This document shows positions 1,881 through 29,163 of a stretch of DNA of 64,000 nt, in pieces (the first letter of the stretch is position 1; every line of letters starts with the position of its first letter). Position numbers and translations under genes: made by a program. The stretch is from Anaeromyxobacter paludicola (GTDB taxonomy: Bacteria > Myxococcota > Myxococcia > Myxococcales > Anaeromyxobacteraceae). The stretch spans positions 3,658,001 to 3,722,000 of the forward strand of contig NZ_AP025592.1 of NCBI RefSeq assembly GCF_023169965.1. The letters run 5' to 3'. The notes beneath the pieces are model-generated. The model was not told the origin of the DNA. It made no database searches and worked only from the letters and a program-made list of their open reading frames with translations.

Positions 1881-3854
<1,974 letters not shown>

Positions 3855-3866
3855 CGCTCCTCCGTG

Positions 3867-3930
3867 TTCCGGGTTCGGGAAAGCCACCTGTTCCAATAAT
3901 GGAACGGATCGTTCCGCGTCTGGAAGTTCC
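3867..3930. promoter_or_regulatory. Array of GGAA/TTCC inverted repeats, candidate upstream activator sites
   Basis: Four dyads built from the same half-site lie between the divergent activator and the beta-oxidation operon: TTCC-N7-GGAA (3867-3881), TTCCAATAATGGAA (3891-3904), GGAACGGATCGTTCC (3901-3915) and GGAAGTTCC (3922-3930). They sit about 80-145 bp upstream of the -24/-12 promoter, a usual distance for enhancer sites of sigma-54 activators, and close to the activator's own start, so autoregulation is plausible. Binding by the PrpR-like protein is inferred from position. Confidence 0.6.
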
Positions 3931-12084: not shown

Positions 12085-12951
12085 TCAGGCGCGCAGGGCG
12101 AGGTCGGCGAGGGCCGCGGCCGCGAACGCCACCGACGCGAAGGCGTTGTAGTTGAAGAAGGCGACGCCGATCCGCTCCGGCCGGAGCGCGCCGCCGGGGG
12201 CGACGTGCCGGTGCTCGGCCACGAGCACGCCGGCGAGGATGGCGGCGCCGGCGAGCCAGCCCGGGCCCCGGCCGGCGAGCGGCCCCGCCCCGGCGATGCA
12301 GAGGGCCGCGAGGAGGTGCAGGCCGCGCGCCCAGGCGAGCGCGCCCCTGACGCCGAACCGGGCCGGGATCGACTGGAGCCCCTCGCCGCGGTCGAACTCC
12401 ATGTCCTGCAGCGAGTAGAAGACGTCGAAGCCGGCGATCCAGGCTCCCACGCCGACGCCGAGCACCACCGCCGGCAGCGTGGCGCGGCCGGTGAGCGCGA
12501 TGGCGACGCCGATCGGCGCGAGCGCCTGCGCCACCCCGAGCCAGAGGTGCACCGCCCAGGTGAACCGCTTGGCGTAGGAGTAGCCGAGGAGGATCGCGAG
12601 CACCGGCAGCGCCAGCGCGCCGCAGAGCGGGGCGATGAGCGCGGCGGCGGCCACGAACAGGGCCGAGGAGCCGGCGAGGAGCGCCCAGGCGCCGGTCACG
12701 CTCACCTCGCCGGTCACGAGCTCGCGCCGGCTGGTGCGCGGGTTGCGCGCGTCGAAGCGCCGGTCGGAGATCCGGTTCATCGCCATGGCCGCGGTGCGGG
12801 CGGCGACCACGGCGAGCGCCACCAGCGCGAGGCGCACCGGGTCGAGCCGGGCGTCGCGCGCCACCAGCACCACCGCCGCCGCGGCGAAGGGCAGGGCGAA
12901 GAGCGAGTGCTCGAGCTTCACCATGCGGGAGAGGGCGGCGAGCTGGGTCAT
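12085..12951 (-). CDS. mqnP: UbiA-family prenyltransferase of the futalosine menaquinone pathway (MqnP)
   Basis: 288 residues with about eight membrane segments. It carries the two Asp-rich prenyl-diphosphate/Mg2+ motifs of the UbiA superfamily: NRISDRRFDARNPRTSRREL (about residues 55-75) and YSLQDMEFDRGEGLQSIPA (about 185-200). In the futalosine route the UbiA-like MqnP attaches the polyprenyl tail to 1,4-dihydroxy-6-naphthoate; the immediate mqn neighbours support that over ubiquinone synthesis. The ATG overlaps the stop of the upstream amidohydrolase gene (ATGA). The polyprenyl donor is probably made by the synthase encoded at 28040-29089. Confidence 0.88.
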   Translation of the reverse strand: MTQLAALSRMVKLEHSLFALPFAAAAVVLVARDARLDPVRLALVALAVVAARTAAMAMNRISDRRFDARNPRTSRRELVTGEVSVTGAWALLAGSSALFVAAAALIAPLCGALALPVLAILLGYSYAKRFTWAVHLWLGVAQALAPIGVAIALTGRATLPAVVLGVGVGAWIAGFDVFYSLQDMEFDRGEGLQSIPARFGVRGALAWARGLHLLAALCIAGAGPLAGRGPGWLAGAAILAGVLVAEHRHVAPGGALRPERIGVAFFNYNAFASVAFAAAALADLALRA

Positions 12952-14288
12952 GCGGAGGGCTCCGGGCGGTGGCGGGCGAGCCAGGTGAAGGGGAGCTCCT
13001 CGCGCCCGAAGACGTCGAGGAGCCAGCGGCAGGGGTCGAACGGCGCGTCGCCGAGCTCCTCCCGCTCGATGGGGGCGGCGAGGACGCCCGGGGCGCGGCC
13101 CGGCTCGAGCCGGCCGACCGCGGGGGCGCCGACGGCGGCGCCGTTCCAGGCGAGCTGCAGGAGCGCGAGCGGCGACACCTCCGGCCAGGCGCGCGAGAGG
13201 GTGGCGAGCTCGGCGAGCGGCGAGAGCGACGGGGCGCTCGCGAGCGAGTCGGTGCCGACGGCGAGCGGGACGCCGGCCTCGAGGAGCTTCGGGAGGTCGG
13301 CCAGCCGGCCGCCGATGTGGAGGTTGGAGCGGGGACAGAGCACCGCGGTCGCGCCGGAGCGGGCGAGGAGGGCGCGGTCCTCGTCGTCGAGGTCCACCAC
13401 GTGCACCACCAGCGTCCCGGGGCGGAGGTGGCGCGCCACCACCTCGACCGGGCTGCGGCCGAGCCGGGGCAGGTCGGTGACGCCGAGCGAGCGGTGCAGG
13501 CCCGCGAACGGGCCGGTGGCTTCGCTGCAGAAGCGCCGCTCCGCCGGGTCCTCGGCGAGGTGGAGCGAGGCGGGGCCGGCGGCGAGCAGCTCCACCAGCC
13601 TCGGCAGGTGCGTGGAGTAGACCGCGTGCGGGGTGAGGACGCGGCGCAGCCCGGGGCCGAGCGGCGGGGCGCGCTCGGCGAGGAGCCGGGCCTGGGCCAG
13701 CGCCCGCTCGATGCGCGGGCCGGTGAAGCCGAAGACCTCCTGGTAGACGGTCCCGGCGACGCCGGCCCGCGAGAGCCAGGGGATCGAGCCGAGGCCGTTC
13801 GAGACGTCGCCCACCGCGGCCACGCCGAAGCGCGTCAGCGCCGCGACGCCGTCCTCGACGGCGATGTCCGACTCCGGCTCGGCGGCGCGCGCGGCCACGA
13901 GGAGCTGGATCCAGGAGGGGAGCCCGTCGCCCCCCGGCACGCGGCCGTGCAGGTGCGAGAGCTCGAGGTGGGTGTGGGCGTTCACGAGCGCGGGGAGGAG
14001 CACCGCGTCGAGCCGCTCGCCCGGGCCGAAGCGGGCCTCCACCTCGGCGGCGGGGCCGACCGCGAGCAAGAGATCGCCGTCGAGGGCGACGGCGCCGTCC
14101 GCGATCAGCGCGGGAGTCGTGGCCGCGCCTCCCCCGCCCTCCCCGCCCGAGCGGGGAGGGGGCTCAGCGAGGCGCCCGCCGGAAAGGTGCGCAGCGGCGC
14201 CCTCTCCCTCTCCCGCGCAGCGGGGGAGGGCCGGGGAGGGGGCTCGCCCCGTCAGCACCCACGGCGCGCGGACGACGCGGACGGTCAC
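12948..14288 (-). CDS. mqnX: Aminodeoxyfutalosine deaminase, amidohydrolase family (MqnX), with palindromic-element insertion
   Basis: 446 residues. The metal site of the amidohydrolase fold is visible: HxH in VNAHTHLELSHLHG, a His in SLHLAEDPAERRF and the Asp in AVGTDSLASAPSL. In the futalosine pathway this enzyme deaminates aminodeoxyfutalosine to futalosine. The GTG start at 14288 overlaps the upstream stop (GTGA). Residues about 15-59 are anomalous: a Gly/Pro/Ala/Arg-rich peptide encoded by a C/G-rich bipartite palindromic element (14128-14248) inserted in frame between the first beta strand (VLTG) and ALIADGAVALDGD. Without it the N-terminus reads like a standard amidohydrolase beta-sandwich. 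The metal-binding core is untouched, so the enzyme is probably active. Confidence 0.87.
   Translation of the reverse strand: MTVRVVRAPWVLTGRAPSPALPRCAGEGEGAAAHLSGGRLAEPPPRSGGEGGGGAATTPALIADGAVALDGDLLLAVGPAAEVEARFGPGERLDAVLLPALVNAHTHLELSHLHGRVPGGDGLPSWIQLLVAARAAEPESDIAVEDGVAALTRFGVAAVGDVSNGLGSIPWLSRAGVAGTVYQEVFGFTGPRIERALAQARLLAERAPPLGPGLRRVLTPHAVYSTHLPRLVELLAAGPASLHLAEDPAERRFCSEATGPFAGLHRSLGVTDLPRLGRSPVEVVARHLRPGTLVVHVVDLDDEDRALLARSGATAVLCPRSNLHIGGRLADLPKLLEAGVPLAVGTDSLASAPSLSPLAELATLSRAWPEVSPLALLQLAWNGAAVGAPAVGRLEPGRAPGVLAAPIEREELGDAPFDPCRWLLDVFGREELPFTWLARHRPEPSA
14128..14248. repeat. Bipartite C/G-rich palindromic element inside mqnX
   Basis: Two palindromes about 40 nt apart: one centred near 14150 (CTCCCCGCCCGAGCGGGGAG core) and one near 14218 (CCCTCTCCCGCGCAGCGGGG core), followed by a GGGGAGGGGG tail. 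The same arrangement occurs at 44991-45108. It is translated in frame as part of MqnX. Confidence 0.8.
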
Positions 14289-16165: not shown

Positions 16166-17290
16166 CTAAGCCTCGTGGACCTTGAGGACGTGGTACAGGC
16201 TGTCGCGCTCGGCGGGGACGCGGCCGGCGAGCCGGATGAGCCGGTGGAACGACGACTCGGTCTGGCCCTGCGGCACGTGCGAGCCGGCCATGTGGTAGAT
16301 GCGCTCCTCGAGCACGGTGCCGTCCACGTCGTCCACGCCGAAGGAGAGCGCGGTCTGGGCCATCCGCTCGCCGAGCGAGACCCAGTACGCCTTCACGTGG
16401 TCGAAGTTGTCGAGGAACAGGCGCGAGACCGCGTAGGTGCGCAGGCCGTCGTAGCCGGTCGGCTTGGGGAACGCCTTGCCGATCATGTTGTGCTCGGGGT
16501 GGAAGGCGAGCGGGATGAAGACCTGGAACCCGCCGGTCTCGTCCTGCAGCGCCCGGAGCCGCGCCATGTGATCCACCCGCTCGGCCAGCGTCTCGATGGT
16601 GCCGTAGAGCATGGTGGCGTTGGTCTTGATGCCGAGCCGGTGGGCGGTGCGGTGCACCTCGAGCCACTCCTCGGCGGTGGCCTTGTCGTCGCAGATCTTC
16701 CGGCGCACCCGCTTGGCGAAGATCTCGGCGCCGCCGCCCGGCATGGTGTCGAGCCCGGCGGCCTTCAGCTCGGTCAGCACCTGCGCGTAGCTCTTGCCGA
16801 ACTTCTGCGCGAAGAAGTGGATCTCGACCGCGGTGTACGCCTTGAGCGCGATCTCCGGCCAGGCGGCGCGGATCCGGCGCAGGAGCTCCGTGTAGTACTC
16901 CCACGGCAGCGTGGGGTGGAGCCCGCAGACGATGTGCACCTCGGTGACGCCGAGCGGCTTGCGCGAGAGCACCTTCTCCACCGCCTCGTCGAGCTGGAAG
17001 GTGTAGCCCTCCGAGGCCTCCTGGTCGTCGAGCCGGGCGAACGAGCAGAACTTGCAGCTCGCCACGCAGACGTTGGTCGGGTTGAGGTGGACGTTGCGGT
17101 TGTAGAAGGCCAGGTTCCCGTGCCGCTCCTCGCGCACGTGGTTCGCGAGCGCCCCCACGGCGGCGAGGTCCTTCACCTCGAAGAGGCGCACCGCGTCCTC
17201 CTCGGTGAGCCGCTCCTTCGAGAGCACCTTGTCGCGGATGGGGCCGAGGCCGGCCCGCTCCAGCGCGCGGTGGGCGAGGTTCGAGAGCAT
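16166..17290 (-). CDS. mqnE: Aminofutalosine synthase (MqnE), radical SAM
   Basis: 374 residues. Radical-SAM cluster motif CVASCKFC (Cys75, 79, 82) follows NVHLNPTN; further family landmarks are VHIVCGLHPTLPWEYY, DTMPGGGAEIFAKRVRRKIC and HNMIGKAFPKPTGYD. MqnE joins the MqnA product with the adenosyl group of SAM to give aminodeoxyfutalosine. The start MLSNLAHRAL at 17290 is chosen because it lies 2 nt after the UbiX-type stop and matches the usual N-terminus; the open frame continues upstream only as shadow. Middle gene of the menaquinone operon. Confidence 0.92.
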   Translation of the reverse strand: MLSNLAHRALERAGLGPIRDKVLSKERLTEEDAVRLFEVKDLAAVGALANHVREERHGNLAFYNRNVHLNPTNVCVASCKFCSFARLDDQEASEGYTFQLDEAVEKVLSRKPLGVTEVHIVCGLHPTLPWEYYTELLRRIRAAWPEIALKAYTAVEIHFFAQKFGKSYAQVLTELKAAGLDTMPGGGAEIFAKRVRRKICDDKATAEEWLEVHRTAHRLGIKTNATMLYGTIETLAERVDHMARLRALQDETGGFQVFIPLAFHPEHNMIGKAFPKPTGYDGLRTYAVSRLFLDNFDHVKAYWVSLGERMAQTALSFGVDDVDGTVLEERIYHMAGSHVPQGQTESSFHRLIRLAGRVPAERDSLYHVLKVHEA

Positions 17291-17292
17291 CT

Positions 17293-17883
17293 TCAGGCGT
17301 CCTCCGGTTCCACGTTCCTGCGCGGCGTGAGCCCCTCCCAGCGGCGCATCAGCGCGTTGGGCAGGCCGAGCCGGTCGAGGAGCCGGGACACCACCGTGTC
17401 CACGAGCTCCCCCGTGTCCCTGGGCTGCGAGTAGAAGCTGGGCGAGGCCGGCATCACCACCGCCCCGGCCTCGATGGCCGCGGTGATGGCGCGGGCGTGC
17501 ACGAGCGAGAGCGGCGTCTCGCGCAGGCAGAGCACGAGGCGGCGCTTCTCCTTGAGCATCACGTCGGCGGCGCGGCCGACGAGGTCCACCGAGAGCCCGT
17601 AGGCGATGCGCGAGAGCTGCCCCGCCGAGCACGGCACCACGCACATGGCGTCGTAGGGCGCGCTGCCCGAGGCGAACGGGGCGGTGAAGTCGTGGTTCTT
17701 CCAGATCGGGAAGGGGTAGCGCGGCTCGGCGCCGATCTCCTGCATCCAGACCTGCTTGCCGGTGGCGGTGAAGACGAGGTCGGCCTCCACGCCGTGCGCC
17801 GCGCCCTCGCTCGACAGGAAGTCGAGGAGCCGCTTCGCGTATGGCGCGCCGGACGCGCCGGAGACGCCGACCACGAGCTTCAC
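17293..17883 (-). CDS. mqnL: UbiX-type flavin prenyltransferase (MqnL)
   Basis: 196 residues, normal for UbiX. The N-terminal VVGVSGASGAPYAKRLLDFL is the FMN/phosphate-binding GASG motif, and the mid-region CVVPCSAGQLSRIAYGLSVDLVGRAADVMLKE and LCLRETPLSLVHARAI are characteristic. UbiX makes prenylated FMN, the cofactor of UbiD decarboxylases; the paired UbiD gene is two genes upstream. In futalosine organisms this pair (MqnL/MqnM) removes the carboxylate of prenylated dihydroxynaphthoate. GTG start, overlapping the menG stop (GTGA). Confidence 0.9.
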   Translation of the reverse strand: MKLVVGVSGASGAPYAKRLLDFLSSEGAAHGVEADLVFTATGKQVWMQEIGAEPRYPFPIWKNHDFTAPFASGSAPYDAMCVVPCSAGQLSRIAYGLSVDLVGRAADVMLKEKRRLVLCLRETPLSLVHARAITAAIEAGAVVMPASPSFYSQPRDTGELVDTVVSRLLDRLGLPNALMRRWEGLTPRRNVEPEDA

Positions 17884-18611
17884 GCGCGGACCCCGGTGAC
17901 GAGCCCGCAGACGCCGGGGAAGAGGGTGACGCCCTGCACGTCGCGGAAGCCCGCCTCCCGGCAGAGCCGCTCGAACTCCTCGCGGGGCACGAAGCGCTCC
18001 ATCGACTCGACGAGGTAGCGGTAGGCGCCCGGGTCCTTCGAGATGGCGCGCCCCACCACCGGCAGGAGCGCCCGGTTGTAGACGTTGTGGACCAGGCGGG
18101 AGCCGGCCGACTGGGGCCGGAAGAACTCGAGCACGCCGAGCCGGGCGCCGGGGCGCAGCACGCGCGCCATCTCGGAGAGCCCCGTCGGCAGGTCCTCGAG
18201 GTTGCGGACGCCGAAGGCGACCGTGAGCGCGTCGAAGCTTTGCGCCTTGAAGGGGAGGGCGAGGGCGTCGGCCTGCGCGGCCGGGAGCCCGGTCTTCCGC
18301 GCGCCGCGCGAGAGCATGGGGAGCGAGAAGTCGGCGCCGGTGACGCGCGCGAGGGGGGCCTGCCGCCGCGCCTCGGCCGCGACGTCCATGGTGCCGGCGC
18401 AGAGGTCGAGGAGGTGGTCGCCCTCGCGAAGCGCGAGCGTGCGGATGAGCCGCCTGCGCCAGGCGACGTCCACCCGCAGGGCCAGCACGCGGTTGAGGAG
18501 GTCGTAGGTGGGGGCGATCCGGTCGAACATGGCCCGCACCGCCGGGGCGCGGTGGGCCTCGCCGGGCAGGGGCGGGGCGACCTCGCTCGCCGCGCGCTTG
18601 GCGTCGCTCAC
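17880..18611 (-). CDS. menG: Demethylmenaquinone methyltransferase (MenG/UbiE family)
   Basis: 243 residues. SAM-binding class I methyltransferase with MFDRIAPTYDLLNRVLALRVDVAWRR, DLCAGTMDVA as motif I, and VAFGVRNLEDLPTGLSEMARVLRPG, all typical of UbiE/MenG. It performs the last step, methylation of demethylmenaquinone. It starts with GTG overlapping the UbiD-type stop (GTGA), so translation of the two is probably coupled. The operon context supports menaquinone rather than ubiquinone as product. Confidence 0.92.
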   Translation of the reverse strand: MSDAKRAASEVAPPLPGEAHRAPAVRAMFDRIAPTYDLLNRVLALRVDVAWRRRLIRTLALREGDHLLDLCAGTMDVAAEARRQAPLARVTGADFSLPMLSRGARKTGLPAAQADALALPFKAQSFDALTVAFGVRNLEDLPTGLSEMARVLRPGARLGVLEFFRPQSAGSRLVHNVYNRALLPVVGRAISKDPGAYRYLVESMERFVPREEFERLCREAGFRDVQGVTLFPGVCGLVTGVRA

Positions 18612-20125
18612 AGGATGCTCCCCTTCTTGGGCGTCCAGGACGCGGCGGGCGGGACGGCGAGCTTCATGCGGCGGAGCGGCGCCGCCCCCGGGACGAGCCG
18701 GTCGTAGAGCGCGTCCATGCGGGCCACCACCTCGGGCGGGTGGACGCAGGGCTCGGGCCACTCGCGCCCGCCCTCCTCCACCCACTTGCGCGTGGCGTCG
18801 ATGCCGATCTTGGAGCCGAAGGCGAAGTGAGGAGAAGCATGGTCGAGGGCGTCGACCGGCCCGTCCACCACCACGAGGTCGCGCTTCACGTCCACGTTGG
18901 CGAAGGCGCGCCAGGCGGCCTGCGGCGTGTCCTGCACGTCCACGTCGTCGTCGAAGACCACCAGCGTCTTGGTGTTGGCCATCTGCCCCGAGCCCCACAT
19001 CCCGTGCATCAGCTTCTTGGCGTGGCCGGGGTACTCCTTCCTCATCGAGATGAAGCAGAGGTTGTGGAAGACGCCCTCCGGCGGGAAGGCCATGTCCACC
19101 ACCTCGGGGAAGACCATCTGCAGCATCGGCAGGAAGAGCCGCTCGGTCGCCTTGCCGAGCCACACGTCCTCCACCGGCGGCGGCCCCACCACCGTGGCCG
19201 GGTAGACGGCGTCGCGCCGGCGGGTGATGCAGGTGACGTCGAGCGCCGGGTAGTCGTCGGCGAGCGAGTAGTAGCCGGTGTGATCGCCGAAGGGCCCCTC
19301 GCGAACGAGCGGCGCCGAGGTGTCCACGAAGCCCTCGATGACGAGATCGGCCTCGGCCGGGACCTCGAGCGGCACGGTGACGCACTTCGCCAGCGGCACG
19401 CCCTCGCCGCGCAGGAAGCCGGCGAAGAGGTACTCGTCCACCCCCGGCGGCAGCGGCGCCGAGGCGGCGTAGGTGAGGGTGGGGTCGCCGCCGAGCGCGA
19501 TGGCGACCGGCATCCGCTCGCCGCGCGCCTTGTAGGCCCGGTAGTGGGCGGTGGCGGTCTTGTGGAGCTGCCAGTGCATGGCGAGCCGCCGCGGCCCGAG
19601 GACCTGGAGCCGGTACATGCCCACGTTGCGCAGGCCGGTCTCGGGGTCGCGCGTCACCACCTGCGGGAGGGTGATGAACGGGCCGCCGTCGTGGGGCCAG
19701 GTGGTGAGGACCGGGAGGGCGCCGAGGTCCGGTTCGCGCTCGACGATCTCCTGGCAGGGGCCGTCGGCGTGGTGCTTGGGGGTGAGGGTGGCGAGCCGCC
19801 CGAGCTTGGGCAGGAGCTTCAGCTTCTCCCAGAGCCCCTGGGGCGGCGCGGTCTTGAGCAGCGCGCGCAGCTCCTCGGCGCGCTCCTCGAAGTCGTCGCA
19901 GGAGAAGGCCCAGCTGGTGCGGCGCCGGGTGCCGAAGAGGTTCATGGCCACCGGCAGCGCGCCGCGGGTGGGCTTCTCGAAGAGCAGCGCCGGCCCGCCC
20001 TGCTTCGCGGCCCGGTCGGCGAGCGCCGCCATCTCCAGCACCGGATCGACGGGCTCCTTGACCCGGACGAGCTCGCCCGCCCCTTCGAGCCGAGCGAGGA
20101 ATTCGGAGAGCGAGCGGTAGGCCAT
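18608..20125 (-). CDS. mqnM: UbiD-type decarboxylase (MqnM)
   Basis: 505 residues, the normal UbiD length. Features include YRSLSEFLARLEGAGELVRV at the N-terminus, an ENLFGT-like segment (MNLFGTRRRTSWAF), the prFMN-binding stretch with GPFGDHTGYYSLADDYP, and the E-rich active-site region. It would decarboxylate the prenylated 1,4-dihydroxy-6-naphthoate using the prenylated FMN made by the UbiX-type protein. First gene of the leftward menaquinone operon. The ATG at 20125 is preferred to an in-frame codon 40 residues upstream, which would run across the divergent promoter. No clear Shine-Dalgarno; a -10-like TAGGAA lies 10 nt upstream. Confidence 0.87.
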   Translation of the reverse strand: MAYRSLSEFLARLEGAGELVRVKEPVDPVLEMAALADRAAKQGGPALLFEKPTRGALPVAMNLFGTRRRTSWAFSCDDFEERAEELRALLKTAPPQGLWEKLKLLPKLGRLATLTPKHHADGPCQEIVEREPDLGALPVLTTWPHDGGPFITLPQVVTRDPETGLRNVGMYRLQVLGPRRLAMHWQLHKTATAHYRAYKARGERMPVAIALGGDPTLTYAASAPLPPGVDEYLFAGFLRGEGVPLAKCVTVPLEVPAEADLVIEGFVDTSAPLVREGPFGDHTGYYSLADDYPALDVTCITRRRDAVYPATVVGPPPVEDVWLGKATERLFLPMLQMVFPEVVDMAFPPEGVFHNLCFISMRKEYPGHAKKLMHGMWGSGQMANTKTLVVFDDDVDVQDTPQAAWRAFANVDVKRDLVVVDGPVDALDHASPHFAFGSKIGIDATRKWVEEGGREWPEPCVHPPEVVARMDALYDRLVPGAAPLRRMKLAVPPAASWTPKKGSIL

Positions 20126-20135
20126 GGGAGGGCCA

Positions 20136-20164
20136 TTCCTACTAGAGCGCCGGCCTTGTTTCAA
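20136..20164 (-). promoter_or_regulatory. Candidate promoter of the leftward menaquinone operon
   Basis: On the minus strand TTGAAA (20164-20159), a 17-nt spacer and TAGGAA (20141-20136) form a sigma-70-like promoter. The -35 hexamer is one arm of the palindrome at 20159-20176. The predicted transcript would start within a few bases of the mqnM ATG. Confidence 0.5.
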
Positions 20165-20184
20165 TGATCGTTGAAAGCTATAAC
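20156..20184 (+). promoter_or_regulatory. Candidate promoter of mqnD
   Basis: TTGTTT (20156-20161), 17-nt spacer and TATAAC (20179-20184) form a good sigma-70-type promoter. The -10 element ends 8 nt before the ATG at 20193 and no Shine-Dalgarno is present, so the mRNA is probably leaderless. Confidence 0.6.
20159..20176. promoter_or_regulatory. Palindromic operator TTTCAA-N6-TTGAAA in the mqnM/mqnD divergent promoter
   Basis: TTTCAATGATCGTTGAAA is an 18-bp dyad placed between -35 and -10 of mqnD and over the -35 of mqnM, a classic repressor position for both directions. The same TTCAA-N6-TTGAA core recurs at the polyprenyl synthase promoter (29112-29129). Confidence 0.6.
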
Positions 20185-20192
20185 GGGCCGCC

Positions 20193-21035
20193 ATGACCAC
20201 CACCGTGCGCGTCGCCCACAGCCCCGATTCCGATGACGCCTTCATGTTCTACGGCCTCGCGTCGGGCGCGGTGAAGGCGGAGGGCGTGGACTTCGAGGAG
20301 GCGCTCTCGGACATCGAGACGCTCAACCAGGCGGCCACCGAGGGGCGCTACGAGATCACCGCGATCTCGGTGCACGCCTACGCGCACATCGCCGACAAGT
20401 ACCGGCTCCTCGACTCCGGCGCGTCGTTCGGCGACGACTACGGGCCGACGGTCGTGGTGCCCAAGGGCTCGAGCGTCCGCTCGGTGGAGGAGCTCTCCGG
20501 CAAGCGCATCGCCATCCCGGGCAAGTGGACGAGCGCCGCCCTGGCCCTCGCCCTGCGCCTCCCGGTCTTCACGCCGGTCATCATGGACTTCAAGGCGGTG
20601 GGCGACGCGGCGAAGCGCGGCGAGGTGGACGCCGGGCTCGTGATCCACGAGGGGCAGCTCACCGCGGAGGAGGAGGGGCTCCAGGTGGTGGAGGACCTCG
20701 GCAAGTGGTGGAAGGGTCGCACCGGCCTGCCGCTGCCGCTCGGCCTGAACGCCATCCGACGCGACCTGCCCATCCAGCTCCGGGAGCAGCTCGCCCGCAC
20801 CATGGCCGAGAGCATCGACTACTCGCTCGCGCACCGCGAGCCGGCCCTCGACCACGCCATGAAGTTCGCGCGCGGCCTCGATCGGAAGCGGGCCGACACC
20901 TTCGTCGGCATGTACGTGAACGACTGGACCCGGTGCCTGGGCGAGCGCGGCCGCGAGGCGGTGGCGCTCTTCCTCCACGAGGCGGCCGAGCGCGGGCTGG
21001 TGCCGCGCGTGAAGCCGGAGTGGCAGGAGCGGTAG
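20193..21035 (+). CDS. mqnD: 1,4-dihydroxy-6-naphthoate synthase (MqnD)
   Basis: 280 residues with a periplasmic-binding-protein-like fold, related to MqnA. The N-terminus VRVAHSPDSDDAFMFYGLA is the characteristic MqnD motif; EITAISVHAYAHIADKY and GKRIAIPGKWTSAALAL also fit. MqnD splits cyclic dehypoxanthinylfutalosine into 1,4-dihydroxy-6-naphthoate. It is transcribed away from the mqnM-to-gbsR operon and shares its control region, including the palindrome at 20159-20176. With the neighbouring genes every futalosine-route step is represented here except the futalosine hydrolase MqnB. Confidence 0.92.
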   Translation: MTTTVRVAHSPDSDDAFMFYGLASGAVKAEGVDFEEALSDIETLNQAATEGRYEITAISVHAYAHIADKYRLLDSGASFGDDYGPTVVVPKGSSVRSVEELSGKRIAIPGKWTSAALALALRLPVFTPVIMDFKAVGDAAKRGEVDAGLVIHEGQLTAEEEGLQVVEDLGKWWKGRTGLPLPLGLNAIRRDLPIQLREQLARTMAESIDYSLAHREPALDHAMKFARGLDRKRADTFVGMYVNDWTRCLGERGREAVALFLHEAAERGLVPRVKPEWQER

Positions 21036-21206
21036 TCCGGCCCGTCCTCCCCTGCGCGATCCGGGGTTGACTCGCCGCGCACGCAGGTCCGCTCGACCCG
21101 GGGCCTGGATGCCCCCTACCCAGGGTACGCATCGCCCGGAGCCCACCTCCCCGATTCCTCAGTCAGCGCGGACCCGAGGCCGCCGGCGGTAGCGCGGCGG
21201 CCCTCT

Positions 21207-21222
21207 GGCACGGGGGGTGCTA
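21207..21222 (+). promoter_or_regulatory. Sigma-54 promoter of the first chemoreceptor gene
   Basis: TGGCACGGGGGGTGCT matches TGGCACG-N4-TTGCW with a single mismatch and exact GG-N10-GC spacing. The predicted start near 21233 gives a leader of about 55 nt before the ATG at 21288. Confidence 0.65.
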
Positions 21223-21287
21223 TTTCCCCGACCGGACCGTCTTCTTGACTGCGTTGGGCGCGTGCGGGCGCGACCCGAGGGAGAGGC

Positions 21288-24200
21288 ATGTTCGCGAACC
21301 GGCTGTCGAGGCTGAACCTGGGGAAGAAGGTGGTGGCGGGCTTCTGCATCGCCATCGGCATCAGCGGGATCGTCGGGGCCGTCGGGTACGGCAGCGCCGC
21401 CGGCGTGCGCGACCGGCTCGAGTCGGTCGGCGGGCTGCAGCTCCCGAGCGTGAGCGCCATCGGCCAGATCCAGACGGCCGAGCAGGAGGCCGTGCGCGGC
21501 CTCAACGCCCTCCAGATCGAGCGGCTCGGGGCGGGCAAGTATCACGAGTCCGCCTTCGGGCTCGTGGGGCACTCGCTGAAGTCCATCGAGGAGGCGCAGG
21601 TCGCCTACGAGAAGCTCTCGCACTCCCCGGAGGCCCTCCAGAAGTGGGCCGTGCTGAAGGAGAAGGTCGCCGCCTGGCGCCCGCTCGTGCTCGCCACCGT
21701 GGACGCGGTGAAGGAGCGCGACCGGCTGGTCGCGTCGGGGCTCCCGGCGGGAGACGCGAGCCTGGGCGCCGCCGATCGCAGGCTCTACGACGCCTGGCTC
21801 TCCATGCGCGAGGCGCTCGACCCGCTCGACGCGGCGCTGGAGGATCTCTCGACGCTCATCCGGGCTCACGCCGAGGAGGCGCGGGAGCAAGGGCACGCGA
21901 CCGCGGCCCGCTCCGCCGCCGTGATGCTGGCGGCGATCCTGCTCGGCTCGGCGCTCATGCTCGGCCTCGGGCTCTGGATCGCCCGCTCCATCGGCCGCGC
22001 CCTCACCGCCCTCACCGCCGAGGCGGCGAAGCTGCGCGACGCGGTGGCCGACGGGCGGCTCTCGGTGCGCGGGGACCTCGCCGCCGTCGAGCCCGAGTTC
22101 CAGCCCATCGTGGCCGGCATCAACGCGACCCTCGACGCCTACGCGAAGCCCATCGCGCTCACCGCCGGCTGCCTGGAGCGGATCGCGAAGGGGGACATCC
22201 CGGCGCGCATCACCGAGTCGTACCGGGGCGACTTCGACGCCATCCGGAACGACCTCAACACCTGCATCGACGCCGTGAACGCGCTCGTGGCCGACGCCGA
22301 CGCGCTCGCCGAGGCGGCGGTCCAGGGGCGCCTCGCCACGCGCGCCGACGCCTCCCGCCACCAGGGCGACTTCGCCCGGATCGTGGAGGGCGTGAACCGG
22401 ACCATCGCCACGCTGGTGGGCCACCTCGAGGCGATGCCCGCCCCGGCGCTGATCATCGATCGCGAGTTCACCATCCGGTACATGAACGCCACCGGCGCCA
22501 AGGTGATCGGCCGCCCGGCGGACCAGCTCGTGGGCACCAAGTGCTACGACGGGTTCAAGACCGCCGACTGCCACACCGACCGCTGCGCCTGCGCCCGCGC
22601 CATGCAGACCGGCCAGACGGCCACCAGCGAGACCGAGGCGCACCCGAACGGCGCCACGCTGCAGATCGGCTACTCGGGCGTGCCGGTGAAGGACCGCGCC
22701 GGCGCGGTGGTCGGCGCCTTCGAGGTCGTGGCCGACCAGACCGAGACGAAGCGCGGCATGGCGGTCGCGCGGAAGGTGGCCGACTACCAGGCGGCCGAGG
22801 CGGCCCGGCTCACCACCGCGCTCGAGCGGCTGGCGCACGGCGACCTCGCGCTCGAGCTGCAGGTGGCCGCGGGCGACGCCGACACCGCCGCCGCGCGGCA
22901 GGTCTTCGCCGGCATCACCGCCTCGCTGCGCCAGAGCGCGTCGGCGGTGGGCGCGCTCGTCGCCGACGTGAAGGGGCTCTCCCGCGCGACGGTGGAGGGC
23001 CAGCTCGGCGCCCGGGCCGACGTCTCCCGGCACGAGGGCGAGTTCAAGGCGGTGGTGCAGGGGGTGAACGAGACGCTCGAGGCGATCGTGACGCCGTTCC
23101 GGATCATCGCCGAGGACTGCGAGCGGATCTCGCACGGCGACATCCCGCCGCTCCGCACCAACGCGGTGAAGGGCGACATCGTGGCGATGCAGCAGAGCCT
23201 CAACCGCTGCATCACCGCGGTGAACGCGCTCGTGGCCGACGCGAAGGCGCTGTCGCGGGCGGCCGTGGAGGGCCGGCTCGCCGAGCGGGCCGAGGTGACG
23301 AAGCACGAGGGGGCCTTCCGCGAGGCCCTCCAGGGCGTGAACGCCACGCTCGACGCGGTGCTGGCGCCCATCGGCGAGGCCACGGCGGTGCTGGAGCGGC
23401 TCGCCGAGCGCGACCTCACCGCCCGGATGAAGGGCGACTACCAGGGCGACCACGCCCGCGTGCAGACGGCCCTCAACGCCACCGCCCAGGCGCTCGACGA
23501 GGCGCTCTCGCAGGTGTCGCAGTCGGTGGGCCAGGTGTCCTCCGCGGCGAGCCAGATCGCGTCGTCCTCGCAGGCGGTCGCGAGCGGCGCCTCGGAGCAG
23601 GCGGCCTCGCTCGAGGAGACCACCGCCAGCCTCGACTCGGTGGCGGCGATGGCGCGCAGCAGCGCCGAGCACGCCGGCCAGGCGAGCGCGCTCGCGACGA
23701 GCGCGAGGGGTCAGGCCACCGAGGGCGCGGCGGCGATGTCGCAGATGCAGGTGGCGATGGATCAGATCCGGGCCTCGGCCGAGGGCACGAGCGCCATCAT
23801 CCGCGACATCAACGAGATCGCCTTCCAGACCAACCTGCTCGCCCTCAACGCGGCGGTGGAGGCGGCGCGGGCCGGCGAGGCGGGGCGCGGCTTCGCGGTG
23901 GTGGCCGAGGAGGTGCGGTCGCTCGCGCTCCGGAGCAAGGAGGCGGCGCAGAAGACCGAGGCGCTCATCCAGCAGTCGGTGAAGCAGGCGGCGCAGGGCG
24001 CCGAGACCTCGCGCCACGTCTCGGCGAAGCTGGGCGAGATCGTGGGCGGCATCGGGAAGGTGACCGACATCGTGGCCGAGATCGCCGCCGCGGCGAAGGA
24101 GCAGTCGGCCGGCATCGAGCAGCTCCACAAGGCGGTCTCGGAGATGGACAAGGTGACGCAGCAGAACGCCGCCAGCTCCGAGGAGTCGTCCTCGGCGGCG

Positions 24201-24410
24201 AGCGAGCTCTCCGGGCAGTCGGAGGAGCTCGCCGCCATGGTCGGCGCCTTCAGGCTCGGGGCGGCCGGCGGCAAGCCGCGCGCTGCCGCGGGCCCCGCGC
24301 CGGCGCTCCGCCCCGTCCCCGCCGCCGCGCGCGCGCCGGAGCGGATCGCGCTGAAGCCGGAGGAGGTCTTCCCGCTCGAGGAGGGCGGGGCCTTCACCGC
24401 GGACTTCTAG
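21288..24410 (+). CDS. Methyl-accepting chemotaxis protein with poly-HAMP and Cys-rich PAS domains
   Basis: 1040 residues. TM1 is about residues 13-33 and TM2 about 208-232, enclosing a helical periplasmic sensor domain. The cytoplasmic part has a HAMP and further HAMP-like repeats ([25 protein letters not shown] and two later copies), interrupted by a PAS domain (about 385-490) with four clustered Cys (419, 428, 433, 435; C-X8-C-X4-C-X-C). The signalling hairpin tip is [27 protein letters not shown] (about 844-870). The C-terminus [14 protein letters not shown]...FTADF is not the CheR-tethering NWETF type but is shared with the next gene. It signals to a CheA/CheW array. Promoter is sigma-54-like. 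Ligand unknown; the Cys cluster could bind a metal or respond to redox. Confidence 0.9.
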
Positions 24411-24444
24411 CGGGAGGCTGGCGGCGGCCGGGAGCCCCTGGCCG

Positions 24445-24480
24445 CTCCTCCCCGGCCCCTCCCCGCCCGACGGGGAGGGG
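24445..24480. repeat. C/G-rich palindromic element between the two chemoreceptor genes
   Basis: A single palindrome of the family (CTCCCC...CCCCTCCCCGCCCGACGGGGAGGGG pattern) about 35 bp after the first chemoreceptor stop. The rest of the 330-bp gap holds the sigma-54-type promoter and little else recognisable. Confidence 0.65.
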
Positions 24481-24664
24481 CGGCGCGGGGTCACCTCGGC
24501 GGCGCCAGGTCGGCCGCCCTGCAGGCAGCCCGACCCGGACACTCGCGGCTTTCGTGACCCGGGGCCGTGGTGACCCGGGGCTCCGCCCCGACCGCGCGGC
24601 CGGTGCGGGCCGGTTTCGACCCTGATCCCGAGCGCTCAGCGAGACGCCTCTCCGCCCGCCTGAC

Positions 24665-24680
24665 TGGCACGGGCGCTGCT
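24665..24680 (+). promoter_or_regulatory. Sigma-54 promoter of the second chemoreceptor gene
   Basis: TGGCACGGGCGCTGCT matches the -24/-12 consensus with one mismatch and exact GG-N10-GC spacing; predicted start near 24691, about 50 nt before the ATG at 24741. It mirrors the site in front of the first receptor. Confidence 0.65.
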
Positions 24681-24740
24681 CTCGACCCACCCCGAACCGG
24701 TGCGCCCTGGCCGGCCGCATTTCTCACCGGGGAGGGACTC

Positions 24741-27700
24741 ATGTTCGGGAAGCTCAAGCTGGGCGGCAAGGTGGTGGCCGGGTTCGGCGTCGCGATCGCG
24801 ATCAGCCTGATCGTCGGCGGGGTGAGCTACTGGAGCGCCGGGCGCATCTCCGCCCAGCTCGAGAACGTCGCCGCCGCCAAGCTCCCCTCGGTGGGCGCGC
24901 TCGGGGTGTTCGACGGGTCGATCCACGAGGTGATCCGCGGGCTGAACGTCCTGCAGATGCGGCAGCTCGGCCACGGCGAGCTCCACCGGGCGGGCTACGG
25001 CTTCGTGGAGGACGGGCTCCAGGACATCGCCGACGCCCAGAAGACCTTCGAGGAGGTGCAGCACACCGAGGCGGGCCTGAAGATGTGGGCCGGGATCCAG
25101 GAGCGCTACCGCGCCTGGGCGCCGCTGGTGGACCGCACCGTGGAGGCCGCGCGCGAGCGCGACAAGCTGATCGCCGCCGGCCACGGTCCCTCCGATCCCG
25201 TGGTGGTCGAGGCGGACCGCCGGGAGCTCGAGGCCTGGAGCGCCCAGCGGGCGGCCGCGGCCCCGCTGCAGCTGGAGCTGGGCAGGCTCGTCGCGAAGAC
25301 CCGGACCGACGCGGAGAAGGTGCGCGAGGAGGGGCGCCGCGCGGCCGCCACCGGGAGCCTGCTCATGGCCGTGGCGATCGCGGCGGGCGCCGCGCTGATG
25401 CTGGGGCTCGGCCTCTGGATCGCCCGCTCGATCCGGCGCACCCTCGCCGCGCTGTCGGCGGAGTCGGGCAAGCTGCGCGACGCGGTGACGGACGGCCGGC
25501 TCTCGGTGCGCGCCGAGCCCTCGGCGGTGGAGCCGGAGTTCCGGCCCATCGTCGAGGGGGCCAACGCCATCATGGACGCCTACGCGCGCCCCCTCGCGCT
25601 CGCGTCGGGCACCCTGGACCGGATCGCCCACGGCGACATCCCCGACCGGATCGCCGAGGCGTCCCGGGGCGACTTCAACGCCATCACCGAGAACCTCAAC
25701 ACCTGCATCGACGCGGTGAACGCGCTGGTCCGGGACGCCGACGCGCTGGCCGAGGCGGCGGTGCAGGGGCGGCTGTCCGCCCGCGCCGACCCGAAGCGGC
25801 ACCGGGGCGACTTCGCCCGCGTGGTGGAGGGCATGAACCGGACCCTGGCGACGCTGGTGGGCCACATCGACGCCATGCCGGCCCCGGCCATGATCGTGGA
25901 CCGCGAGCTCACCATCCAGTTCATGAACGCCACCGGCGCCAAGGTGATCGGCCGCCCGGCGGACCAGCTCGTGGGCACGAAGTGCTACGACGGGTTCAGG
26001 ACCAGCGACTGCCACACCGAGCGCTGCGCCTGCGCCCGGGCCATGTCGACCGGTCAGACGGCCTCGAGCGAGACCGAGGCCCGGCCCAACGGCCAGGTGC
26101 TCCAGATCGGCTACAGCGGCGTGCCGGTCCGCGACGGCGCGGGCGCGGTGATCGGCGCCTTCGAGGTGGTCGCGGACCAGACCGCGGTGAAGCGCTCCAT
26201 GGCCGTGGCCCAGAAGGTGGCCGGGTACCAGGCCGCCGAGGCGGCGCGGCTCACCACGGCGCTGGAGCGGCTGGCGCAGGGCAACCTGGACCTCGCGCTG
26301 GAGGTGACGCCCGGCGACGCCGACACGGCGCACGCGCAGGAGGTGTTCGCCGGCATCGCGGCCTCGTTGAAGCAGAGCGCCGCGGCGGTGGGGGCGCTGG
26401 TCAACGACGTGAAGGCGCTCGCCCGGGCCGCGCAGGAGGGCCAACTCGGCGTGCGGGCCGAGGCCGGCCGCCACCAGGGCGAGTTCCGCGCCGTGGCGCA
26501 GGGCGTGAACGACACCCTCGACGGCATCGTGACGCCCTTCCGGACCATCGCCGAGTACTGCGAGCGGATCTCGCGCGGCGACATCCCGCCGCTCCGGACC
26601 GGGAAGGTGAAGGGCGACATCGTCGCGATGCAGCAGAGCCTCAACCGCTGCATCACCGCCGTGAGCGGGCTCGTCGCCGACACGAAGGCGCTCTCGCAGG
26701 CGGCGGTCGAGGGGCGGCTCGCGGAGCGGGCCGACGCCTCCCGTCACGAGGGAGCCTTCCGCGAGGCCCTCCAGGGCGTGAACGCCACGCTCGACGCGGT
26801 GCTGGCGCCCATCGGCGAGGCCACGGCGGTGCTGGAGCGGCTCGCCGAGCGCGACCTCACCGCCCGGATGAAGGGCGACTACCGCGGCGATCACGCCCGG
26901 GTCCAGACGGCGCTCGACGCCACCGCCCAGGCGCTGGAGGAGGCGCTCTCGCAGGTGTCGCAGTCGGTCGCGCAGGTGTCGAGCGCGGCGAGCCAGATCG
27001 CGTCGTCCTCGCAGGCGGTGGCGAGCGGCGCCTCGGAGCAGGCGGCCTCGCTCGAGGAGACCACCGCCAGCCTCGACTCGGTGGCGGGCATGGCCCGCTC
27101 GAGCGCCGATCACGCCGGGCAGGCCAGCGCCCTCGCCGCGGCCGCCAAGGGGGCGGCGGTGGAGGGCGCGGCGGCGATGTCGCAGATGCAGTCCGCCATG
27201 GACAAGATCCGGGCCTCCGCCGAGGGCACCGGGGCCATCATCCGCGACATCAACGAGATCGCCTTCCAGACCAACCTGCTCGCCCTCAACGCGGCGGTGG
27301 AGGCGGCGCGGGCCGGCGAGGCGGGGCGCGGCTTCGCGGTGGTGGCCGAGGAGGTGCGGTCGCTCGCCATGCGCAGCAAGGAGGCGGCCCAGAAGACCGA
27401 GGAGCTGATCCGGCAGAGCGTGGCCCAGGCCACGGAGGGCGCCCAGACCTCCCGCCAGGTCTCGGGCAAGTTCGGGGAGATCGTGGGCTCGATCGGGAAG
27501 GTGACCGACATCGTGGCCGAGATCGCCGCCGCGGCGAAGGAGCAGTCGGCCGGGATCGAGCAGCTCCACAAGGCGGTCTCCGAGATGGACAAGGTGACGC
27601 AGCAGAACGCCGCCAGCTCCGAGGAGTCGTCCTCCGCGGCGAGCGAGCTCTCGGGGCAGTCGGAGGAGCTCGCCGCGATGGTCGGGGCGTTCCGGCTCGA

Positions 27701-27845
27701 GGCGGCCCGCGTCAGGAGCCGCCCGGCCGCGGGCGCCGCCGACCGCGCCCTCCCCGCCGCCGCGCGCGCGCCGGAGCGGATCGCGCTGAAGCCGGAGGAG
27801 GTCTTCCCGCTTGAGGAGGACGGGACGTTCACGGCGGACTTCTAG
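24741..27845 (+). CDS. Methyl-accepting chemotaxis protein, tandem paralogue
   Basis: 1034 residues with the same layout as the upstream receptor: TM1 about 12-32, TM2 about 210-230, HAMP repeats, PAS with the same Cys spacing ([17 protein letters not shown]), signalling domain and an almost identical C-terminal tail ([22 protein letters not shown]). The periplasmic domain is clearly more divergent than the cytoplasmic part, so ligand specificity probably differs. Two tracts of about 130 bp are identical in DNA between the copies (23313-23442 with 26754-26883, and 23793-23926 with 27234-27367), suggesting recent gene conversion. The ATG has a strong GGGGAGGG upstream and its own sigma-54-type promoter. 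Confidence 0.9.
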
Positions 27846-27870
27846 CGGGGTGGACCTTCTCGGCTGAGAC

Positions 27871-28038
27871 GAGAGGGGGAGGGGCCCCACCGTAGGTGGG
27901 GAGGGGCAGCGCCCCTCCCCGCCGGACAGCGTGCAAGCGACGAGCGGAGCGAGGCGCGCAGCGCGCTCGGCTCCGGCGCAGCAGGGGAGGGCCCCCGGCG
28001 AGCTTTGCTCGACGGGGAGGGGGCGCAGCCCCCTCCCG
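27871..28038. repeat. Cluster of C/G-rich palindromic elements between convergent genes
   Basis: Several inverted repeats of the family (CCCCACCGTAGGTGGGG, GGGGCAGCGCCCC, GGGGGCGCAGCCCCC) fill the gap between the second chemoreceptor and the polyprenyl synthase, both of which end here. They could act as a bidirectional terminator. Confidence 0.65.
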
Positions 28039-28039
28039 A

Positions 28040-29089
28040 TCAGAACGCCCGCTCGGTGAGCTGCTGCGCCGCCTCGGCGATGGCGCGGCGGTGGACGCCG
28101 TCGGGCACGCGCTCGAGGGCGGCCATGGCGCGGCCGGTGTGCTCGCGGGCGATGGCGCGGGCGGCCTCCACGCCGCCGGAGCGCTTCACGGCCTCGATGA
28201 CGTCGCCGGCGACGTCGTGGGCCTCGGCCTTGCCCTCGACCAGCGCCGAGAGGCGCTGCCGCAGGAGCGGCTCGGCCTCGCAGGCGCGGATGAGGGGCAG
28301 GGTGGCCTTGCCCTCGAGCAGGTCCGTGCCGAGCCGCTTGCCGAGCAGCTCGGGCGCGGCGGCGTAGTCGAGCGCGTCGTCCACGAGCTGGAAGGCGATG
28401 CCGATCCCCTCGCCGAAGACGCCGAGGGCGCGCGGCACCTCGCCGCGGATCCCGGCCGCCCAGGCGCCGGCGGCGGCGCTCCAGCCGAAGAGCGAGGCGG
28501 TCTTGCCCTCGACCACGTCGAAGTAGTCGCGCTCGGTGGCCTCGAAGCTCCCGCGGAGCGAGAGCTGCAGCACCTCGCCCTCGACGAGCCGGCGCATGGT
28601 GGCGAGCAGCGCCGGGAGCGCGGCCGGCCGGGCGTGCTGCTCGGCCACCAGCTCGAGCGCGCGGGTGAGGAGCCAGTCGCCGGTGAGCACCGAGACCGCG
28701 TTGCCCCAGATGACGCGCGAGGTCGGCTGGCCCCGGCGCATCGGGCCGTCGTCGATCACGTCGTCGTGCAGGAGCGTCGCCGAGTGGGTGAGCTCCGCGG
28801 CCACCGCGAACGGCACCGCGGTCGCGAGCTCCCCGCCGCAGGCGCCGCAGGCGAGCAGGGTGACGGTGGGCCGGATGCGCTTGCCGCCGGCGAGCACCAG
28901 GTGGCGGGCGGCGGCCTTGAGCGTCTCCTCGGCGTCGGCGGTGGCGCGCGAGAGCTGCTGCTCGAGGGCCATCAGCTCCTCGCCGAGGCGCGGCACCTCC
29001 TGCAGGGCCGCCTGCGCGCGCTCGGGGCGCGCCCCGCGCTCGGCGCTGGCGTCCAGCTGGGACAGGATGGCCTGCTCGGAGCTGCGCAT
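28040..29089 (-). CDS. Polyprenyl (trans-isoprenyl) diphosphate synthase
   Basis: 349 residues. The two Asp-rich Mg2+/substrate motifs are LLHDDVIDDGPMRRG (first DDxxD) and QLVDDALDYAA (second), with GGKRIRPTVTLLAC upstream. The residues before the first motif are Ala-Glu-Leu-Thr-His-Ser-Ala-Thr, small ones typical of long-chain (C35-C50) synthases of the IspB/HepT group. It would make the menaquinone side chain used by MqnP. Its promoter region carries the same palindrome as mqnM/mqnD, supporting this link. The ATG at 29089 follows GGGAGGGG. The exact chain length is not predictable. Confidence 0.88.
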   Translation of the reverse strand: MRSSEQAILSQLDASAERGARPERAQAALQEVPRLGEELMALEQQLSRATADAEETLKAAARHLVLAGGKRIRPTVTLLACGACGGELATAVPFAVAAELTHSATLLHDDVIDDGPMRRGQPTSRVIWGNAVSVLTGDWLLTRALELVAEQHARPAALPALLATMRRLVEGEVLQLSLRGSFEATERDYFDVVEGKTASLFGWSAAAGAWAAGIRGEVPRALGVFGEGIGIAFQLVDDALDYAAAPELLGKRLGTDLLEGKATLPLIRACEAEPLLRQRLSALVEGKAEAHDVAGDVIEAVKRSGGVEAARAIAREHTGRAMAALERVPDGVHRRAIAEAAQQLTERAF

Positions 29090-29111
29090 GAAGCGACCCC
29101 TCCCGGGGAAA

Positions 29112-29129
29112 GTTCAAGAAAAGTTGAAC
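29112..29129. promoter_or_regulatory. Palindromic operator GTTCAA-N6-TTGAAC upstream of the polyprenyl synthase
   Basis: GTTCAAGAAAAGTTGAAC shares the exact TTCAA-N6-TTGAA frame with 20159-20176. It lies over the predicted start of transcription, just downstream of the -10 element, where a bound repressor would block initiation. Confidence 0.55.
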
Positions 29130-29133
29130 GAGC

Positions 29134-29163
29134 CATATAGCGCGGCCCGGTGTCGCGGGTCAA
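29134..29163 (-). promoter_or_regulatory. Candidate sigma-70 promoter of the polyprenyl synthase gene
   Basis: On the minus strand TTGACC (29163-29158), an 18-nt spacer and TATATG (29139-29134). Predicted start near 29127, inside the palindrome at 29112-29129. Confidence 0.5.

Follow-up and report, generated by a model that had tools for sequence, protein, structure and literature searches.

The 64-kb stretch of the Anaeromyxobacter paludicola genome analyzed here (contig NZ_AP025592.1, positions 3,658,001 to 3,722,000; hereafter the window) carries genes for the synthesis of menaquinone, or vitamin K2. An operon on the reverse strand, headed by the gene for a UbiD-type decarboxylase (mqnM), constitutes together with the divergent mqnD the futalosine menaquinone pathway, and a separate locus carries the gene for a polyprenyl diphosphate synthase (pps). 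The inverted repeat TTCAA-N6-TTGAA, referred to below as the dyad, is present both in the promoter region shared by mqnD and mqnM (dyad 1) and at the promoter of pps (dyad 2). P0001, a GbsR-type member of the MarR family, is encoded at the end of the mqn operon, 8 bp beyond the UbiA gene. The dyads are very probably operators of P0001, which would coordinate synthesis of the menaquinone ring (mqn), the side chain (pps) and, in this genome, the supply of isoprenoid (dxs). Features of the window are collected in Table 1. The amidohydrolase of the operon probably performs the aminofutalosine deaminase step, a function assigned from the pathway. Open reading frames (ORFs) of length comparable to the MqnA-MqnC fusion are matched in relatives (loci L046 and L048).

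Table 1 Features of the window, with positions counted from its first letter; bit scores are given against the model cut-off
Feature	Position	Strand	Evidence or remark
Dyad 1, TTCAATGATCGTTGAA	20160-20175		exact TTCAA-N6-TTGAA; shared mqnD/mqnM promoter region
Dyad 2, TTCAAGAAAAGTTGAA	29113-29128		exact TTCAA-N6-TTGAA; just 3' of -10-like element of pps
mqnD promoter-like elements, TTGTTT (20156-20161), 17 bp, TATAAC (20179-20184)	20156-20184	+	by eye
mqnM promoter-like elements, TTGAAA (from dyad) as -35, 17 bp, TAGGAA	20136-20164	-	by eye and conservation
pps promoter-like elements, TTGACC (29158-29163), 18 bp, TATATG (29134-29139)	29134-29163	-	by eye
MqnD (VitK2_biosynth), divergent from operon	20193-21035	+	PF02621, 229 bits
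UbiD-type menaquinone decarboxylase (mqnM), first gene of operon	18608-20125	-	TIGR03701, 641 bits vs 496
MenG/UbiE methyltransferase	17880-18600 (start approximate, inside ORF 17880-19385)	-	TIGR01934, 215 bits vs 158
UbiX-like flavoprotein	17293-17883	-	PF02441
MqnE, aminofutalosine synthase	ORF 16166-17644 (true start probably ~17287)	-	TIGR03700, 498 bits vs 434.6
MqnA-MqnC fusion, 624 aa	14285-16159	-	PF02621, residues 4-243; TIGR03699, residues 282-619, 468 bits vs 428
Amidohydrolase	12948-14273 (start provisional)	-	PF01979
UbiA-family prenyltransferase (MqnP-like)	12085-12951	-	Pfam UbiA; NCBIfam MqnP models below cut-offs
Candidate regulator P0001, GbsR-type MarR family, 192 aa	11498-12076	-	Pfam MarR_2
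Polyprenyl diphosphate synthase (side-chain synthase, pps)	28040-29089	-	PF00348; best NCBIfam model GerC3_HepT below cut-off
NtrC-type regulator	1881-3896		outside mqn operon
Two long, similar tandem ORFs	21288-24410 and 24567-27845	+	chemoreceptor-like by eye; between mqn and pps loci

Two exact copies of the dyad in the window were claimed in the original prediction, and both were found; the 18-mers that it delimited (20159-20176 and 29112-29129) contain the dyads, which at 16 bp are shorter by one base on each side. With up to one mismatch allowed, the window holds these two dyads against 0.01 expected, and none of 100 shuffled sequences reached two. The genome to which the window belongs (G000; 4,590,331 bp in one contig) has three exact copies, compared to 0.02-0.04 expected from base composition or 0.22 from half-site frequencies, while the reversed form of the dyad, used as the control pattern, has none. 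The motif is thus not common at random positions, and the earlier assertion that its occurrence is unlikely by chance holds genome-wide. At one mismatch there are three further dyads (L004-L006), in or at ORFs without a visible link to quinones, and the reversed control gives two matches at up to one mismatch.

The three exact copies are located at mqnD/mqnM, at pps, and at dxs, the first gene of the methylerythritol phosphate isoprenoid pathway. The dxs copy (G000:C1:1575810-1575825, locus L001) lies 81 bp upstream of the start codon of a gene identified with TIGR00204 (647 bits vs a cut-off of 466). Among the genomes of the family the dyad is found at this gene in G000 only, and dxs was therefore rejected as a conserved member of the regulon; the dyad there looks like a recent gain. 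In G000 (C1:1574310-1577325) dxs is a solitary gene with a dyad promoter to itself, unlike in most family members.

The family Anaeromyxobacteraceae (f1) was represented by 24 genomes from six genera, relatives that are not independent samples. Exact dyads were found in 20 of the 24, the reversed control in none, and a hand count assigns 33 of the 35 exact copies to the promoters of mqnM/mqnD, pps, or dxs. Of 23 mqnM promoters, 19 have an exact dyad, two have one with a single mismatch, and in two it is decayed. Across the 21 mqnM promoters having the dyad with at most one mismatch, conservation is 90-100% in the left half and 100% in the right, against means of 52% and 65% in the flanks. Since only the right half can be a -35 element, the conservation of the left half makes the mqnM dyad an island of conservation beyond the promoter element. 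The dyad remains at mqnM where mqnD has moved away, and the pps promoter of one genome (G020) has the variant TTCAG-N6-CTGAA. Conservation in related genomes, proposed earlier as a check, is thus borne out for both promoters in the various genera of the family.

Placement of the dyads relative to promoter-like elements was examined by eye. At mqnD, dyad 1 begins in the last two bases of TTGTTT and otherwise occupies the spacer, and at mqnM its TTGAAA is the -35-like element, followed in relatives by a conserved TAGAGAT- or TACAGAT-like element. The original prediction had placed dyad 1 between the -35 and -10 elements of mqnD and over the -35 element of mqnM; inspection agrees on both counts, and the TTGAAA is kept in relatives. 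A consensus sigma-70 promoter scanner called no promoter at either dyad at its threshold. Dyad 2 is 24-39 bp upstream of the pps ATG (29089, reverse strand), just downstream of the -10-like TATATG, and likely covers the transcription start of pps; its earlier description as lying over the predicted start of the gene does not apply to the start codon.

The gene encoding P0001 is the candidate for the cognate regulator and is conserved after the UbiA gene across the family. The best PDB sequence match of P0001, and also its top fold match, is archaeal MJ0223 (1KU9; E value 5.7e-15), its closest solved relative, which has a shorter C-terminal region. The AlphaFold model (predicted local distance difference test score of 90) places a winged helix-turn-helix within residues 15-96, followed by helices at 100-133 and 139-190, the arrangement of an N-terminal DNA-binding domain and C-terminal helices expected of a GbsR-type protein. 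P0001 scores 54.6 bits against the curated CudC model NF047500, below its cut-off of 218, and is thus distinct from CudC, a single equivalog that does not define the GbsR-type subfamily. When the window was examined for an alternative candidate, the other DNA-binding regulator scanned was of the NtrC type and lies outside the mqn operon. A second, diverged GbsR-type paralog, approximately 40-45% identical, is encoded in G003 (C1:5006842-5007312; loci L069 and L090), and the single 20-kb neighborhood inspected (L090) shows it away from mqn and pps; similar paralogs are present in G004-G006, G008, G009, G017, and G020.

Two genomes of the family, G022 and G023, are 98-100% complete and lack the regulator, with no protein or profile match and no such gene in their mqn loci. 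Their mqnM promoters retain TTGAA, the -35 half of the dyad, and the left half reads CCCAA or CCGAA; no dyad is present at their pps promoters. These genomes represent a natural joint loss of regulator and operator.

The association is not confined to the family. Elsewhere in the order, pps is directly followed by the orthologous gene, at 45-53% identity, or by a counterpart approximately 40% identical, and in most loci examined a dyad with 0-2 mismatches and a clade-specific sequence is found just upstream of pps. A separate collection, including loci of Polyangiaceae and Labilithrix, supplied 34 loci with a pps-linked regulator and with sequence upstream of pps; 32 of them have a dyad (at most one mismatch) within approximately 380 bp upstream of pps. 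The remaining 192 kb of these loci held no dyad, and the reversed control did not occur upstream of pps. Where the regulator is unlinked to pps or ubiA, a dyad was nearby in only 3 of 29 cases.

The same operator also accompanies a different route to the ring. The futalosine route is found in Anaeromyxobacteraceae and a further family, f6, and the chorismate (Men) route in Myxococcaceae-like genomes (f4) and other lineages. The f4 genomes have isochorismate synthase (MenF) and MenD, and no mqnM-type decarboxylase was detected in them at the strict cut-off; MenF was found in none of the listed f1 genomes. In f4 the dyad is in the divergent promoter between menF-menD and 3-deoxy-D-arabino-heptulosonate 7-phosphate (DAHP) synthase-menG, and it is exact in 30 of the 30 closest loci. 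Many genomes of distant f4 members and of family f7 have the dyad at menF, exact or with one mismatch, as clade variants. In f6 (L088), a single locus brings together the regulator, the dyad, pps, menG, mqnE, mqnAC, and ubiA, and in another Myxococcota lineage (L271) the regulator gene and a pps-menG-menF-menD run point away from each other across a region with an exact dyad. Two non-homologous ring routes, futalosine and chorismate, are thus found with the same operator and the same regulator family. Other exact dyads in Myxococcaceae-like genomes are mostly in coding sequence, with several in intergenic positions without a visible quinone link; these copies were set aside as chance occurrences.

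A dimer of P0001 would bind the inverted repeat and block RNA polymerase, because the dyad lies across the start region of pps and, for mqnD and mqnM, across the -35/spacer region. Autorepression is also probable, since the regulator gene closes the operon under control in this genome and comes after pps in others. A signal reporting the quinone or prenyl state would then release the regulator from DNA, and candidates include menaquinone, the redox state of menaquinone, a polyprenyl diphosphate, and cues from respiration. A shared signal is probable because the same regulator and operator accompany both pathways, whose ring intermediates differ. On balance we lean towards a regulator devoted to menaquinone level throughout the phylum, whose operators persisted through replacement of the ring pathway and which would for this reason sense a product or state common to both routes, such as menaquinone or polyprenyl diphosphate.

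The rarity, placement, and conservation of the operator, its linkage to the regulator gene, and their joint loss are direct observations, and from this setting we infer the binding of P0001 to the dyads, repression, and a ligand. The original prediction, in which a single repressor governs a menaquinone regulon of ring and tail genes, finds support as a regulon in the rarity and conservation of the dyad, the linked candidate regulator, and the phylum-wide association; the repressor role is suggested by operator position and by analogy to characterized GbsR-type relatives.

Among these relatives, CydE of Alishewanella sp. WH16-1 is a GbsR-type repressor of cydEAB and footprints on TATTTCAGAAATTTCTGAAAGTTCA, which has the form TTCAG-N6-CTGAA (PMC6096048). 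The dyads at pps in family f7, for example TTTCAGAAAGTTTTGAAAGTTCAGG in L083, are nearly identical to this site, flank included. CydE resembles P0001 in being a GbsR-type MarR protein whose gene is in its own target operon (a predicted one for P0001), and it has a respiratory-chain target, a quinol oxidase; it differs in that the target is cytochrome bd rather than quinone or prenyl synthesis, in its reported response to sulfate, and in a second footprint unlike the dyad (PMC6096048). CioR of Chromobacterium violaceum is likewise described as a GbsR-type autorepressor of a quinol oxidase operon, but it targets cioAB, and no binding motif turned up in the part of the source considered (PMC11837568). 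The operator form TTCAR-N6-YTGAA, represented in the CydE/CioR subgroup by the first footprinted CydE site, is matched by the myxococcal dyads; among the scanned neighbors of the regulator there were mqn, pps, or men genes instead of a cytochrome bd gene. GbsR and OpuAR of Bacillus belong to the GbsR-type subfamily and are modeled on MJ0223, which is also the best structural match of P0001, but they exert choline- or betaine-responsive control of osmoprotectant genes (PMC6207618). No gbsAB or opu genes were among the annotated neighbors of the regulator, and no quinone-linked GbsR subgroup came up in the passages of the survey considered (PMC6207618).

Several observations weigh against the regulon proposed for P0001 and its relatives. 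G014-G016 keep the regulator and have no dyad at pps, and elsewhere in the family dxs is mostly directly 3' of another gene, the dxs dyad being confined to G000. With the chorismate route, genus g16 (G070, G073, and G079) lacks the dyad at menF and keeps it at pps, and G045 and G024 have no dyad near menF at up to two mismatches. The f4 regulator, at approximately 40% identity, falls on a long branch, so that synteny is the basis for calling it an ortholog. The loss in G022 and G023 is probably a single event, and many of the conserved loci are from close relatives and are non-independent.

The GbsR-type protein could bind the dyads yet activate transcription, or switch with redox state or oxygen, rather than plainly repress its own operon. 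Differing outcomes would be possible with a dyad over the -35/spacer region at mqnM and mqnD and downstream of the -10 element at pps; however, a site over the pps start region and in the mqnD -35/-10 spacer fits a repressor, and both CydE (PMC6096048) and CioR (PMC11837568) are autorepressors, and we regard an activator or switch as unlikely. It is more doubtful still that the dyad is a quinone-regulon operator of another transcription factor, with the GbsR-type gene a bystander. G014-G016 are as this would predict, but the regulator gene is what recurs beside the quinone genes, whether behind mqnP, behind pps, or divergent from men genes; genomes with a decayed dyad have lost it; and a GbsR-type protein footprints on the same architecture. 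That the motif serves merely as a promoter element, with TTGAAA as an extended -35 recognized by one particular sigma factor, we consider very improbable: the right half is indeed -35-like at mqnM and is retained in G022 and G023 without the regulator, but at pps the dyad sits downstream of the -10 element, conservation extends to the left half and to the 6-bp spacing, and the G020 pps variant preserves the symmetry. A chance coincidence of two AT-rich 16-mers has a negligible probability, for although two copies in a single window would alone be weak evidence, the genome-wide counts and controls contradict it and conservation already refutes it.

Operators of a GbsR-type regulator thus remain the preferred interpretation of the dyads. 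To our knowledge, how bacteria match the quinone ring to the prenyl tail is little understood. In the open-access literature searched, we found no dedicated transcriptional regulator of menaquinone synthesis and no description of a GbsR- or MarR-type menaquinone regulator in Myxococcota. The present analysis supplies a candidate gene, exact operators, and natural comparisons, namely either pathway under the same control and genomes without the regulator, making testable what cells sense to set their menaquinone level. The quinone itself would thereby join osmoprotection and quinol oxidases among the targets of GbsR-type control.

Some further features were observed at these and related loci. 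Instead of the dyad, the menF promoters of g16 (L195-L197) have another palindrome, GCTTTG-N7-CAAAGC or GCCTTG-N7-CAAGGC, immediately 5' of a -10-like element; its two arms have changed in concert. Other Myxococcota metagenome-assembled genomes (L293, L297, and L327) encode GbsR-type relatives unlinked to pps; that of L293 is beside response regulators and that of L297 beside a large protein without a Pfam match. In another metagenome-assembled genome (L347, 2208-4304), the regulator is between DAHP synthase and mqnD with UbiA and an amidohydrolase upstream, and no dyad was found at up to one mismatch. The interval between the mqn and pps loci, occupied in the window by the tandem ORFs, holds different genes in other genera.

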